Shown one piece after another: positions 3 through 35,013 of a DNA stretch of 35,013 bases. How positions within the stretch are numbered: position 1 is the first letter of the stretch; every line of letters begins with the position of its first letter. Where the stretch lies: positions 1-35,013 of the IMG/VR virus record IMGVR_UViG_3300017437_000039. One strand, written 5' to 3'. The notes beneath the pieces are model-generated. The model was not told where the DNA came from and ran no database searches. It saw only the letters and a program-made list of their open reading frames with translations. A program made the translations under genes and the position numbers. This DNA comes from a virus.

Positions 3-866
3 ACCAATTCCTCTGCTATAGCAAAGGAGCATTGGAGGATTGTAATCTACGGACCACCGGGTCATGGCAAGACTGTACTTTCGGCGTCGTTTTCTGAGAA
101 ATTTCCGTCTTCTGAAGAATTTAAATCCAGACTTACTGCGGAAAAGAGAGAAGTGATTAAACTGACTGACATGCTGTGGATGGGGTTTGATAACGGCGCA
201 TGCAATAGCCTGGCATCATTGGGATTAGAGGTTGATGTGTTAGACTACGTCAGCTTGAGAAATAAATTTCCGAATCACTCAGCCTTAGATGTGTGCAATA
301 TGATGGTCAATGCTGCTGCGTCGGCCAAGGATAAAACAACTATTGTGGTCGATACTTTATCCAAGCAGGTAGATGAATATGAAGAATTTTGTAAAGCCTC
401 TTGTGAAGCACTTGTTCAGGATTCTAGTTTGGAAGTATTTGAAAAGAATTCCATACGAATGTATAGGCAATTAGCCAGTCTAAATCGCAAATTTAAAGCA
501 GATATGTTTTCTTTGAAAAAACATATAATAATGTGTTGCCATAGTCACATGCCGACTATAATGGATAAACCAGATGCAGATAAAGAGGAACTCAAAGCAT
601 TTCTCACTCTTCCAGGTGGAGCCAAGGTGGAACCACAACTTACAGGTCAGGCAAAAAAAATCTACCTCAATGACCCCTCCATGCAATTATTTCTCGTGGC
701 TCAAAAGTCAATGCGACAGGCGGGGAAGCTCATTAGAAAGCTCTACTCATCGCCGAATCAAAAAGCGCAATGCAAGAATCGTTTTGCTGGGTTAATGCCG
801 GAGGTAATAGAGGAACCACATCTTCGAGAGATATACAACATGGTGGTAGCAAAACTTCCAAATTAG
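3..866 (+). CDS. Sak4-like RecA-fold phage recombination ATPase (5' truncated)
   Basis: The reading frame is open from the first bases, so the start codon lies outside the window. The GTG at 153 is too late because the Walker A motif GPPGHGKT (nt 51-74) lies upstream of it in the same frame. A Walker B-like strand, TTIVVDTLS, follows at about nt 339-365, and a conserved-looking HIIMCCHSHMP strand at about 522-554. A short RecA-like core with GPPGxGKT and a hydrophobic strand ending in Asp fits phage Sak4/AAA_24 ATPases, which assist single-strand annealing and strand exchange at replication forks. The C-terminal part is basic. It is first in a tight + strand run with the polymerase, which supports a role in replication or recombination. 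Another RecA-fold phage ATPase, such as a helicase loader, remains possible. Confidence 0.72.
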   Translation, partial: TNSSAIAKEHWRIVIYGPPGHGKTVLSASFSEKFPSSEEFKSRLTAEKREVIKLTDMLWMGFDNGACNSLASLGLEVDVLDYVSLRNKFPNHSALDVCNMMVNAAASAKDKTTIVVDTLSKQVDEYEEFCKASCEALVQDSSLEVFEKNSIRMYRQLASLNRKFKADMFSLKKHIIMCCHSHMPTIMDKPDADKEELKAFLTLPGGAKVEPQLTGQAKKIYLNDPSMQLFLVAQKSMRQAGKLIRKLYSSPNQKAQCKNRFAGLMPEVIEEPHLREIYNMVVAKLPN

Positions 867-1868: not shown

Positions 1869-1933
1869 AGTCCCGTCCGGTATGAACTCTTCTCGCTCAA
1901 AAAAGTGTACCACAAAAAATATCGGACGGGACT
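1869..1933 (+). other. Perfect 11-bp inverted repeat around the HNH start codon
   Basis: AGTCCCGTCCG (1869-1879) is exactly complementary to CGGACGGGACT (1923-1933). The 43-base loop contains ATG 1882, the start codon of the HNH gene, and the 3' arm lies inside that gene. The 3' arm runs into a T tract (TTTTT, 1933-1937), so the structure could end transcription after the upstream gene. It could instead hold the weak ribosome-binding region near 1861-1866 and the start codon in a structure that limits endonuclease translation. Its GC-rich stem stands out in this AT-rich genome. Confidence 0.75.
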
Positions 1934-2232
1934 TTTTGTATTACCTACCTGTTTATTCTGGTAAAAAAATGGTTAATTCAACTTTGGTAGACCAAGATTG
2001 GTGGAAGAGATTACATAATGTGAAGATTTATACAAATAGGGCACCTGATGGAAAACATGCCTATGCTAGGGTTGCGGTATATTTACACAGATTAATCACC
2101 AAATGCCCTGCACATTTACAGGTAGATCATTTGAATAATGATAAAATGGATAATAGACGTTGTAATCTGCAATGTGTTTCCAGACTACAAAATTTAAAAC
2201 GGCGTGATGCCCGTGGCAAAAGAAAACGCTAA
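1882..2232 (+). CDS. HNH homing-type endonuclease
   Basis: This is a 116-residue protein with a complete HNH pattern: LHRLI (His69), LQVDHLNNDKMDNRRCNLQ with Asp82-His83, Asn91 and Asn95, then a basic tail. The N-terminal stretch YLPVYSGKK...VDQDWWKRL resembles the segment that often precedes the HNH domain in free-standing phage endonucleases. This supports a start upstream of Met30, and ATG 1882 is the best available. Such enzymes cut DNA near their insertion site and spread by recombination repair. The 3' end overlaps the polymerase start by about 26 bases, so it sits against a favoured homing target. The start lies in the loop of a strong hairpin with only a weak ribosome site. Confidence 0.85.
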   Translation: MNSSRSKKCTTKNIGRDFLYYLPVYSGKKMVNSTLVDQDWWKRLHNVKIYTNRAPDGKHAYARVAVYLHRLITKCPAHLQVDHLNNDKMDNRRCNLQCVSRLQNLKRRDARGKRKR

Positions 2233-4588
2233 AGCTTTGGGATGTCTCTGTGACTCTTGCCCATTTGTAGAGCATAAATGCGTATTGCCTACCAAGCCAC
2301 CAAAGAAGGTACAGTATATCATAGTTGGCGAATCTCCGGGGTTAGATGAAGCATCAGAGGGAAAATTCTTTATAGGTAGATCTGGCAGATTATTGACAAG
2401 GTTGTTGGAGACTACCGGGCTAACTAGGAATGATGTTTACACTACAAATGCAATTCTATGCGAACCATCAAAAAAGACCATATCACTAGAGGCATTAAAG
2501 GCATGTCGGGCGAGGTTATATAACGAATTATCGTATGTACAATGTAATTACATTCTTGCATTCGGCGCAAAGGCTTTAGCTACACTAACAGGCCAGCAGA
2601 AGATATTATCCCACAATGGGTATATTTTCCAGGGAAAGAATTGGAACCGCTATGGAAAGAAGGGAGATTTGTTGGAAGCTGGTGCTGATTTTTCTAAGTA
2701 TCAGATATTAGCCTCTATCCATCCTGCGTTTGCCTTGCGATCACCTTCTTATACACATGTGATATTATCGAATTTGCAGAAAATGAAATTAGTAGCTAAT
2801 GGCCAATTGCAGAAACGAAAATGGCCAGAGATTATTATCAACCAGGATTCCCCAGAAATGCTAGAGGCGTTAGACAAATTGTCTTCGGCTACCTCTGTGG
2901 CGATTGATGTGGAGACTTCTGGAATCAACCCTCTGGTGGATAAATTGCGGTGCTTTTGTATAACCACTAGCCAAATCGCAATATCGGTTCCTTGGCCGAT
3001 TGAAAACCAAGAAGTTGCGGATAGGGTATTGGGTATTTTAAAAAATCCTGCTATTGGCAAGACATTATTAAATATGTCTTTCGATCTACAGGTATTTCAT
3101 GCAAACGGGATTCAAGTAGAAAATGCGGATTGCGATTTGTTAGTCCTAGATAGCTATCTATATCCAGACACAAGACATAGTCTCGCTTGGATCGCCGCAC
3201 GCGAACTGTGGTTGCCGGAATGGAAAGATAAAATCTCCACCGAAGTAAAGGACAAATCCTCTGCGAGATGGGAAAAATATCCAATTGAAGATCTAATGGT
3301 ATATAACGCTAGAGATGGGATAGTTACACAAACTCTGCGTGAGATGTTAATACCTAGACTTAAGCAACTGCAAAATGGGGAGGTTATATTTAAAGATTTA
3401 ATGAGATGTCATCAAATAGGCGTTAAGATGACAATCAGAGGAAATAGGATTGATTTTTCTAAAATAGACAATCTTCGCAAGGAATTGCATGAAAAGTTAA
3501 GTGCTACACAGAAAACCTTAAGTGAGTATTGCCTTGAAGCTTCAATTCCAGTTGGGAATATACAATCTATTCCTTATATAACTAAGGTATTTCAACTGTT
3601 CAACATAAAGTTTAAAAAGAAAACAGCTTCAGGAAAATTTTCATTAGATAAGTATGTATTGGTAGATATTATTGGTTCTGAAAATATCCCAGCCGCGAGG
3701 TACGCCAAAGCTCTGTTAGAGTATAGAGGGTATAAAAAACTATTATCTACCTATATCAACGGACTAAAAACTGACATGCGAGGATTTCTTCATCCAAATT
3801 GGAAACCTACCCTGTTAACTGGTAGATGGTCGTGTACCGATCCGAATATTCAAAATATTCCAAAAGCAATGAGGTCGTTGTTCAAGGCTCGTGATAATTG
3901 TTGGCTCGTGTCTGCTGATTTCAATGCCTTGGAGGTACGCATATTAGCTTTACTTGCAAAGGATAAATTGTTTCTTGAATACTTCGCTGAAGGAATTGAT
4001 CCACACCTAGCTACTGCTAAGCTGATTTTAAAGACGAACAACGTTACAAAAGCGCAAAGAAATATTGTTAAAGGAATTGTCTATGGGATAATATACGGGT
4101 CATCTTCTCAAACTGCATATACCAATATTACAGCCAAGGGACTGGAAGTCACGTTAGAACAGATAGAATGGGTCAAGGCTAAGCTTTTGCAAATGCATCC
4201 AGAATTAGTCCATTTTCATACTAAAATTTACCGGCAGGTATTTAAAAACCGTTGGGTAGAAATACCATTCACTAGTAGAAGAAAGTATTTTTTAGATACC
4301 ATTATTACTAGAGAACAAATAAACGAAGCGTATAATTATCCAATTCAGGGACTTGCGGCACATTTAATGAATCAGGCAGTAATTAAAATCTCTGGTCTAT
4401 TAGACTGGGGGGTAGAAACTATCTTTGCACAACTACATGATGAATTAGTTCTCGAAGGGCCGGATCCAGAACGTCTAAAGGAGATATTATTGACTAATTT
4501 ACAAACTTCTGCCACACTAGATGGTGTAACCATGACATTCCCGGTTGCACTTCATGTGGCCCAAAATTGGGGTGATATAGAGAAATGA
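2207..4588 (+). CDS. Uracil-DNA glycosylase (family 4) fused to proofreading family A DNA polymerase
   Basis: Residues are numbered from GTG 2204; ATG 2207 is the next codon and was preferred, though neither has a clear ribosome site. Residues about 13-200 form a family-4 uracil-DNA glycosylase: CLCDSC for the Fe-S cluster, GESPGLDE (42-49), FFIGRSG, TNAILC, a fourth Cys 15 residues later, and HPAFALR. Residues about 228-395 are a DnaQ-like 3'-5' exonuclease with DVE (Asp235, Glu237), N290-x3-D294 and Y367-x3-D371, all intact. The polymerase follows: motif A ADFNALEVR near 572, motif B RNIVKGIVYGIIYG (Arg619, Tyr627) and motif C LHDE (His745-Asp746-Glu747). The position equivalent to Phe762 of E. 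coli Pol I is Tyr, as in T7. It is the likely replicative polymerase, with uracil removal on the same chain. Confidence 0.93.
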   Translation: MPVAKENAKALGCLCDSCPFVEHKCVLPTKPPKKVQYIIVGESPGLDEASEGKFFIGRSGRLLTRLLETTGLTRNDVYTTNAILCEPSKKTISLEALKACRARLYNELSYVQCNYILAFGAKALATLTGQQKILSHNGYIFQGKNWNRYGKKGDLLEAGADFSKYQILASIHPAFALRSPSYTHVILSNLQKMKLVANGQLQKRKWPEIIINQDSPEMLEALDKLSSATSVAIDVETSGINPLVDKLRCFCITTSQIAISVPWPIENQEVADRVLGILKNPAIGKTLLNMSFDLQVFHANGIQVENADCDLLVLDSYLYPDTRHSLAWIAARELWLPEWKDKISTEVKDKSSARWEKYPIEDLMVYNARDGIVTQTLREMLIPRLKQLQNGEVIFKDLMRCHQIGVKMTIRGNRIDFSKIDNLRKELHEKLSATQKTLSEYCLEASIPVGNIQSIPYITKVFQLFNIKFKKKTASGKFSLDKYVLVDIIGSENIPAARYAKALLEYRGYKKLLSTYINGLKTDMRGFLHPNWKPTLLTGRWSCTDPNIQNIPKAMRSLFKARDNCWLVSADFNALEVRILALLAKDKLFLEYFAEGIDPHLATAKLILKTNNVTKAQRNIVKGIVYGIIYGSSSQTAYTNITAKGLEVTLEQIEWVKAKLLQMHPELVHFHTKIYRQVFKNRWVEIPFTSRRKYFLDTIITREQINEAYNYPIQGLAAHLMNQAVIKISGLLDWGVETIFAQLHDELVLEGPDPERLKEILLTNLQTSATLDGVTMTFPVALHVAQNWGDIEK

Positions 4589-4827: not shown

Positions 4828-5144
4828 GAAAGTCTACAGATAAAAAATTAAAAAATGTTGACTATGTTAAATTGTCAGTTGTGGCTTTGGTTCTTTGTAC
4901 AATAGGGTCATTAGTAACTTTGGTAATCATTCCTGCTGGTTGTCTGTTTCCAAAACCACCACCGAGAATTGCTTTGGTACCTTTACCCACCGGATGTATA
5001 ATGCGTGTAGATGTAGATAAGAAGCAATGTGCGTTATCATGTACAGAAACCGCCCCACAAACATTAGACAATACTTTGTATCAGGAATTTTGTAACAAAA
5101 TGTGGGGGTATCTTAATGAATATTGGGTGGAGTTAGCTAAATGA
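4824..5144 (+). CDS. Cys-rich membrane protein, possible lipoprotein-like
   Basis: The start is ATG 4824, with GGAGGA at 4815-4820. The frame extends back to 4809, but the ribosome site and the ATGA overlap with the previous stop fix this start. The 106-residue product has a basic N-terminus, one hydrophobic helix at about residues 16-40, and IPAGC followed by a Pro-rich stretch (FPKPPP). IPAGC resembles a lipobox but has Pro at -3, so lipidation is doubtful. The C-terminal half carries several Cys residues, which would suit disulfide bonds outside the cytoplasm. Function is unknown. Confidence 0.6.
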   Translation: MRKSTDKKLKNVDYVKLSVVALVLCTIGSLVTLVIIPAGCLFPKPPPRIALVPLPTGCIMRVDVDKKQCALSCTETAPQTLDNTLYQEFCNKMWGYLNEYWVELAK

Positions 5145-6751
5145 TATGTTCAATATTTTTCTCTTTTTTGGGAGCATTTTCAGTCTATTCTGGGGTGCAT
5201 ATTGCCGAAGAAAATGGCGTTGCAATACCTGGTAGTCCATTTGCTAATGATGTTGCGGCGATTCAAGCGGCGGTGAATAGGGCGGCTGATGGAGATATTA
5301 TTCAATTAAAGGCCGGGCCAGGAGGTGTACAATTTGACTTTAGTCTAGGACAAAGAAGGGTACGTTTGTATGCTAATAATCCAACTAGCGGTTCTTCTCC
5401 AGCAGCCGTCGTCCCACCACCATCTTCTGTCGGGGGAAAATCTCTCACATTTATTGGAATACCTAGTAATGGAGTTGACAAACCTGTGTTGTACAGGGGT
5501 AATCAATTTTTTGAGATAGACATGGGAGCTAGTCCGGGGGGGATGAATGGAGAAAATACCCAGCACGATATAGTTTTCGACAATCTCCATTTTGCTGAGG
5601 CCGGTGCCATAACAGCCGCGGAAAGATTGCTTTCTAGTAGACTTTCTGCTTTTATCTTCCTTCGTCGAGTTCGATCATTTATTTTGAGAAATTGTCTATT
5701 TACACACACCAATTATCAACAAGATTTAAGGGATAATCTTATTGAGGATTTTCAGACTAGAGTATTGCATTTAGATAAACAAGGATTTGTTCTCCAAAGT
5801 GCGGTCCCCGGGGGGATAGCGAATACTGTAATTGTTTCTAAATTATTGCTAATAGAAGATAATGAAGTTGATTTATGTACTTCTTGTTTACCTTCTGATG
5901 TTGCTCCACGTAATGGGCAATTATATGGGTTTAATCTCCGTAGATCTGGACCTAATGCGAAAGTAATTGCGAGAAATAATAATATAAAAAATATATCTGG
6001 TAGCGGGTTATTAAGTATAGACAATTGGGGGGATGTAAATTTTTATGATAATTATATAGAATCTACCTATTGGCAGCATAATAGGGATGATTTAGGAACC
6101 GGAAGATTTTACAGAGGGGGAAGTCCAACTAGTGGTTTTCACCTAGAACATCTTGATGGATTTATGACTGCAAATCCAAATAACTACGGTAGTCTTTCTG
6201 CCGATAGAAATATAATTAATTCTCACTTATTAGATGCCAATGGAGTTGCTATTGCCAGACTTGAAAATGGTGGTGGGGATCAGAAAGTTATAAAATTAAC
6301 AGGTAATGTCATAAGTACTAAAAACGGACATTTTTCTATCGAATTATTTGGATTTAATAATGTTTACGTTGGTCATAATTATCTTCAAGGTTCTATGTTG
6401 TCACCATTAATGATTGGTAGACCAGATTTTTTAATCGATCCATCAATAACACCACATCCTTTTTCAACAGTAGGTGGTTCATATGTTGGAAACAACCTAA
6501 CGCGGGCTGCTTATGTTGATGCCGCAGTAATATTTTCTATAAGTGCAACAAATAATTCTATAGTAGGTGGTGGGGTACATTTTAATGATAATAATGTTTT
6601 ATTTTATTGTACTCCTGCTCCTTGTGGTAATACCTTGTCTGGATATACAGCATCCGGTGGAGTTGGGCAGGTAATTTCTAATTCTTTGAAAGCTGTTGGG
6701 GAATCTCAACCGAATTATCATTCAGAAAATTATGACCAGGAAGTCGAGTAA
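5141..6751 (+). CDS. Predicted secreted right-handed beta-helix protein
   Basis: The 536-residue protein starts at ATG 5141 behind GGAG and overlaps the previous stop as ATGA. The first 20 or so residues are hydrophobic (ICSIFFSFLGAFSVYSGVHI) and could be a signal peptide. Residues about 34-60 (DVAAIQAAVNRAADGDIIQL) match the opening motif of pectate-lyase-fold proteins. The rest is a run of short beta repeats rich in Asn, Gly and Asp, such as VIARNNNIKNISG, VNFYDNYIES and DVLFYC-like strands near the end. This fold is shared by polysaccharide lyases and phage tail spikes. The gene lies in the early + operon rather than among structural genes, so an exported enzyme or surface protein is as likely as a spike. 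No active site can be assigned by eye. Confidence 0.72.
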   Translation: MICSIFFSFLGAFSVYSGVHIAEENGVAIPGSPFANDVAAIQAAVNRAADGDIIQLKAGPGGVQFDFSLGQRRVRLYANNPTSGSSPAAVVPPPSSVGGKSLTFIGIPSNGVDKPVLYRGNQFFEIDMGASPGGMNGENTQHDIVFDNLHFAEAGAITAAERLLSSRLSAFIFLRRVRSFILRNCLFTHTNYQQDLRDNLIEDFQTRVLHLDKQGFVLQSAVPGGIANTVIVSKLLLIEDNEVDLCTSCLPSDVAPRNGQLYGFNLRRSGPNAKVIARNNNIKNISGSGLLSIDNWGDVNFYDNYIESTYWQHNRDDLGTGRFYRGGSPTSGFHLEHLDGFMTANPNNYGSLSADRNIINSHLLDANGVAIARLENGGGDQKVIKLTGNVISTKNGHFSIELFGFNNVYVGHNYLQGSMLSPLMIGRPDFLIDPSITPHPFSTVGGSYVGNNLTRAAYVDAAVIFSISATNNSIVGGGVHFNDNNVLFYCTPAPCGNTLSGYTASGGVGQVISNSLKAVGESQPNYHSENYDQEVE

Positions 6752-34998: not shown

Positions 34999-35013
34999 GC
35001 TACTCTATTCTAA

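Follow-up and report, generated by a model that had tools for sequence, protein, structure and literature searches.

The DNA analysed here, hereafter the window, is the whole of IMG/VR virus record IMGVR_UViG_3300017437_000039 (35,013 bases), which is classed as linear and carries early genes on the plus strand and structural genes on the minus strand; its portal and capsid are P22/SU10-like. The record probably lacks its left end, because its first gene is cut and similarly arranged relatives are circles of 44 kb. A second contig of the same virus, L022 (3300022563_000061, 26.3 kb), is 99.8% identical to the window over the 19.5 kb compared. Both contigs stop at exactly the same right-hand base (window position 35,013), perhaps because the genome truly ends there, or else through an assembly break common to the two. 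The genes nearest to the polymerase gene encode a Sak4-like protein, two ORFs without assignment and an HNH endonuclease (Table 1). The HNH gene runs into the first bases of the polymerase gene, and in SPO1 a putative homing endonuclease sits in a polymerase intron. The polymerase gene is followed by a 536-aa ORF (5141-6751) without a Pfam or PHROG match, whose N/G-rich repeats give the impression of a beta-helix.

Table 1. Features of the polymerase gene and its neighbourhood in the window
Feature	Residues	Position	Strand	Basis
Sak4-like single-strand annealing/AAA protein, truncated by the left edge of the record		3..866	+	Family match
HNH endonuclease, overlapping the polymerase gene start by ~26-29 bases		1882..2232	+	ORF, family match
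UDG, 3'-5' exonuclease and family A DNA polymerase on a single chain	793 aa	2207..4588	+	ORF, Pfam, conserved residues, AlphaFold model
Family-4-type UDG domain	~15-197	2249..2797	+	Pfam, NCBIfam, alignment, profile match to Tth UDGa 1ui0
Short linker between UDG and exonuclease	~198-212	2798..2842	+	Domain borders from Pfam and model
3'-5' exonuclease domain	213-385	2843..3361	+	Pfam; D234, E236, D293, Y366, D370
Family A polymerase domain	423-789	3473..4573	+	Pfam, fold match; D571, K622, Y626, H744, D745

The polymerase ORF begins with an ATG at 2207, with an alternative in-frame GTG start three bases upstream at 2204, and contains no internal stops. Pfam detects three domains along it, each exceeding its curated cut-off: UDG (PF03167; 78.4 bits, E = 7e-22, residues 33-181), DNA_pol_A_exo1 (PF01612; 48.9 bits) and DNA_pol_A (PF00476; 186 bits), scores that lie far beyond chance. 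The protein thus has the fusion-type layout, with UDG, exonuclease and polymerase in that order and without a 5'-3' nuclease domain. Its exonuclease carries the DxE...D...YxxxD pattern (D234/E236, D293 and Y366/D370) and its polymerase carries motifs A (D571), B (K622) and C (H744-D745), the catalytic residues of both domains being invariant or nearly so among 36 homologues. Together with the four cysteines and the pocket residues described below, these data bear out the original prediction, which had placed a complete family-4 UDG and a proofreading family A polymerase on one chain at 2207-4588; the motifs on which it relied were all confirmed in the sequence.

The structural modelling that had been proposed as a check also gave a favourable result. 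An AlphaFold2 model of the full chain, for which all 36 input sequences came from the window or from IMG/VR loci, was confident (mean pLDDT 86.8, pTM 0.84) and displayed the strand-helix order expected for a UDG in residues 37-197; when the UDG domain was modelled alone from its single sequence, the pLDDT was 35. In a fold search, the model matched Klenow-type polymerases (Klenow, E = 2e-29) and full-length phage polymerases. It is extremely unlikely that assembly has wrongly joined a host UDG gene to a phage polymerase, given this single confident fold, a GC content that is even on both sides of the junction (0.41 and 0.38) and more than a hundred independent phages with an identical domain order. 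We found no evidence in support of such a chimera; the 99.8% identical L022 contig stops short of the polymerase gene.

The UDG domain possesses the family-4 ligand pattern, a CxxC near its N-terminus and two further cysteines around motif 3, with all four Fe-S cysteines (C15, C18, C85 and C100) aligned to conserved columns. Its pocket is likewise complete: E42 and E48 in motif 1 (VGESPGLDE), F55, N81 (TNAILC) and H172 (IHPAFALR) correspond to E41, E47, F54, N80 and H155 of Tth UDGa. Two positions depart from the Thermus enzyme, G42 being replaced by S43 and N89 by K90. Thus, the EG doublet of family-4 motif 1, a Gly or Ala after the Glu, is absent (E42-S43), as is the Asn of motif 3, and NCBIfam UDG_fam4 (TIGR00758) scores 82.0 bits over the whole model, under its curated cut-off of 125.3. 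For these reasons, we call the domain family-4-type and do not regard it as a canonical member. A profile built from the domain and 12 homologues matched Tth UDGa (1ui0) at E = 6e-57, as compared with ~1e-37 for UdgX-type chains and 9e-13 for family 5. Assignment to UdgX itself was considered and rejected, as the UdgX model scores 63.7 bits against a cut-off of 190 and the KRRIH insertion before the motif-2 region is absent.

The functional cost of changes at the equivalent positions has been measured in Tth UDGa, where H155S drops k2/Km ~2500-fold, N80A ~40-fold and N89A ~7-fold, H155 being a catalysis residue rather than a binding residue and N89 the proposed water-positioning residue (PMC5387724). 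The mutant table, as printed, lists no change equivalent to S43 of the window (PMC5387724). The large costs at residues that are matched in the window, whose pocket and ligands are intact, support an active UDG. Since these residues are kept and the positions of G42 and N89 are altered, we expect an activity that is perhaps weakened: by analogy with N89A, the change to K90 may weaken excision but should not abolish it, and the domain probably excises uracil.

Novelty of the fusion is not supported. The UDG-exonuclease-polymerase order was described in 2020 for phage PaBG, whose gp205 UDG was modelled on Tth UDGa 1ui0, and it was noted in 11 related phages (PMC7412058). PaBG and the 'Lupandier' group, which are jumbo myophages, resemble the window in having an N-terminal UDG, a 3'-5' exonuclease and a C-terminal family A polymerase, a likeness compared by domain order (PMC7412058). 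Bacillus phage SPO1 gp31, the fusion reflected in the family name 'phage SPO1 DNA polymerase-related protein', likewise joins a UDG fold to an exonuclease and a family A polymerase, but it has lost the cysteines, has a Ser in place of N81 and is adjoined by a dUMP hydroxymethylase. Using tblastn, we identified 27 phage records whose matches span 80% or more of the window protein, and IMG/VR searches yielded over a hundred loci with UDG-PolA polymerases, some of which share one contig or phage. The architecture is therefore not new, and the window, as judged from sequence comparison, is a very divergent member. Its nearest rows on a polymerase tree are Caudoviricetes of the vir526, ctSAF950 and Mel-JY34 type, which have an intact catalytic core and no hydroxymethylase gene, but whose identity to the window is just 24-29%; the join between the window and ctSAF950 unites two long branches and is unsure. 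In Mel-JY34-type polymerases (L017, L031-L039) the UDG catalytic residues are kept and all or most Fe-S cysteines are lost. The annotation of ctLwi270 splits the polymerase (L018:1727-4364) into two ORFs, the first of which carries the UDG; a frameshift, an intron or an error may account for the split. The stand-alone family-4 UDGs (Tth UDGa 1ui0, TM0511 1vk2 and 4zbx) share the cysteine pattern, motifs and fold with the window, but are unfused, and the Tth enzyme has the G42 and N89 noted above. In addition, residues 9-153 of PDB entry 9qhs, a 1142-aa 'Putative DNA-directed DNA polymerase I', match the UDG profile (E = 2.4e-20), so a solved polymerase with a UDG domain exists. UDG goes unmentioned in the YerA41 polymerase paper.

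Taken together, we consider it reasonably probable, as one joint judgement, that the window protein serves a tailed phage as its replicative DNA polymerase, and that the UDG fused to it is an active enzyme that removes uracil from the phage DNA during replication. In this model, a catalytically competent family-4-type [4Fe-4S] UDG, fused to a Klenow-like proofreading polymerase, would flip and excise uracil while the enzyme sits on the DNA, so that deaminated cytosine and misincorporated dUMP would be cleared in the course of replication. The resulting abasic site would then be dealt with by separate nucleases or recombination, a Sak4-like protein being encoded nearby. We infer all three elements, the activity, its timing in replication and the handling of the abasic site. 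The suggestion that the fusion replaces a separate repair step at the fork is likewise inference only: a uracil removed from the template in front of the polymerase would leave behind an abasic site that blocks it. In some relatives (L005) a dUTPase gene lies directly beside the polymerase gene, which is consistent with uracil exclusion.

Such a block would not arise if the domain were a sensor that bound uracil in the template before the polymerase reached it and halted the enzyme without excision. Archaeal family B polymerases stall at template uracil in this way, through a pocket of their own. The binding pocket residues of the window are intact; however, H172, the equivalent of the Tth catalysis residue, is conserved too, and we found no direct support for a sensor, which we regard as improbable. 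The further suggestion, that the fusion counters a host nucleotide-pool defence, gains no support from the window: we detected neither a dUTPase or dCMP deaminase gene nor one of thymidylate-synthase type in the 35 kb, from which the left end is missing. Nor did the window ORFs scanned give a family match to UDG inhibitors or other uracil-pool genes, although a very small inhibitor could escape such a scan.

We then aligned the N-terminal parts of 118 polymerases, of which five lacked the region and 113 had a UDG domain. Taking E42, N81 and H172 as the core, and calling it broken where at least one of the three was missing, we found the core and all four cysteines kept in 46 of the 113 domains (the window included), the core kept and cysteines lost in 11, and the core broken in the remaining 56, broken-core domains often retaining all four cysteines. 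A tree was built from the exonuclease-polymerase part only, using 70 polymerases below 75% identity (quick search, LG+G4, with long branches). One side of it holds the window, ctSAF950, vir526, L028 and the Mel-JY34 group, all without hydroxymethylase genes, and the other holds the remaining polymerases, with hydroxymethylase genes wherever enough flank is visible. On this tree the state of the core, intact or broken, changes at least 13 times, a count that gives no direction. Selection was estimated from pairs with dS below 1, as most pairs are saturated and say little. Among vir526-type polymerases, the closest intact-core group with dS that is not saturated, dN/dS is 0.04-0.07 for the UDG part and 0.03-0.04 for the polymerase part; in the broken-core pairs L099/L134, L099/L015, L015/L134 and L098/L104 the corresponding values are ~0.09-0.26 and 0.05-0.17. 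The IMG/VR and GTDB genomes contained no relative close enough for such an estimate on the window gene itself.

These data bear on the activity of the UDG in both directions. The 46 domains with core and cysteines kept, and the strong purifying selection on intact vir526-type domains, favour active uracil excision, while the S43 and K90 departures, the sub-cut-off NCBIfam score and the 56 broken cores weaken the case. Many relatives keep a broken-core domain, so retention of the UDG does not require glycosylase activity; moreover, the purifying selection on the broken domains argues for a function of the fold beyond excision, and this repeated inactivation without loss hints at a second way in which the domain aids the polymerase. 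It could accordingly be that the polymerase retains the UDG chiefly for DNA binding, processivity or folding, with any glycosylase activity incidental or secondary. There is precedent in vaccinia virus, where the UDG D4 has a catalysis-independent role in the processive polymerase complex and so in replication (PMC1936997). Like the window domain, the D4 UDG is associated with the replicative polymerase of a virus, but it is a separate subunit with a family 1 fold, and its polymerase belongs to family B, so that the likeness is one of analogy and not of kinship. Every main pocket residue is kept in the window copy, which would be needless for a purely structural part, and as the main explanation for the window we hold this reading to be rather unlikely. 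A catalysis-independent role is nonetheless a serious rival, and the main one, and both roles can hold together.

As for DNA modification, the first 20 phages had suggested that the core is broken in hydroxymethyluracil phages and intact elsewhere. This was refuted: among intact-core loci with at least 4 kb visible upstream, 23 of 28 have a hydroxymethylase-like gene and 22 of 28 a dCMP deaminase gene, frequencies that are biased, since the sample was drawn partly by a query built on hydroxymethylase-bearing phages. A conserved gene order, thymidylate kinase, MazG/dUTPase-like, an unassigned gene, hydroxymethylase-like thymidylate synthase, dCMP deaminase, UDG-PolA, Cas4-like exonuclease and Sak4-like, was observed in L003, L007, L009, L015, L016, L019, L020 and L021, and suggests thymine modification in these phages, mycobacteriophage Muddy among them. 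With such dUMP-hydroxymethylase-like and deaminase genes adjoining relatives' polymerase genes, and with a fusion in SPO1, a known hydroxymethyluracil phage, the fused UDG might clear uracil from DNA that has hydroxymethyluracil or its derivatives in place of thymine. For the window this is very improbable, however, as we found no hydroxymethylase or deaminase gene in its 35 kb, which lack the left end, the polymerases grouped with it on the tree (vir526, L028 and the Mel-JY34 group) are without these genes, and the complete circular relatives ctLwi270, vir526 and ctSAF950 have none.

Since the fold matches to the full-length model included a T5-like polymerase (Gostya9), we examined T5 DNA polymerase itself (L138:7098-9665; AY543070, 71097-73664). 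This family A enzyme needs no accessory proteins for its high processivity, and its N-terminal region is unique. Pfam detected no UDG in the T5 protein. However, a phage-UDG profile built without T5 matched its residues 58-122 with 25.1 bits (E = 1e-5) in a search of ~17,500 real, reversed and shuffled sequences, in which the best decoy reached 8.5 bits; a profile from intact domains only gave 16.3 bits (E = 0.005), and hhalign gave a probability of 91-93%. The catalytic positions are gone (ISPAQ as against HPAF elsewhere). The extension therefore resembles an eroded UDG copy, which is a lead and not proof, and it counts in favour of a role of the domain in processivity. We tentatively propose, as a possibility somewhat short of an even expectation, that the N-terminal UDG fold is a general part of a large class of phage family A polymerases, serving in DNA grip or processivity; excision would have been preserved in some lineages, including that of the window, and lost many times elsewhere, down to the T5 extension.

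As the fusion was already known, the window adds one divergent member, and the surrounding pattern is of more interest: a repair domain on a replicative polymerase that has been inactivated again and again and yet kept. If the domain does have a second job in DNA synthesis, the intact and broken versions from related phages, together with T5 polymerase, would form a ready comparison set and could lead to polymerases with or without tolerance of uracil. Finally, we note that residue 626 of the window protein (4083-4085), which lies in motif B and corresponds to F762 of E. coli Pol I, is a Tyr, as in T7 polymerase, whereas most aligned phage fusions have a Phe there; Tyr626 predicts easy use of dideoxynucleotides by the window polymerase.
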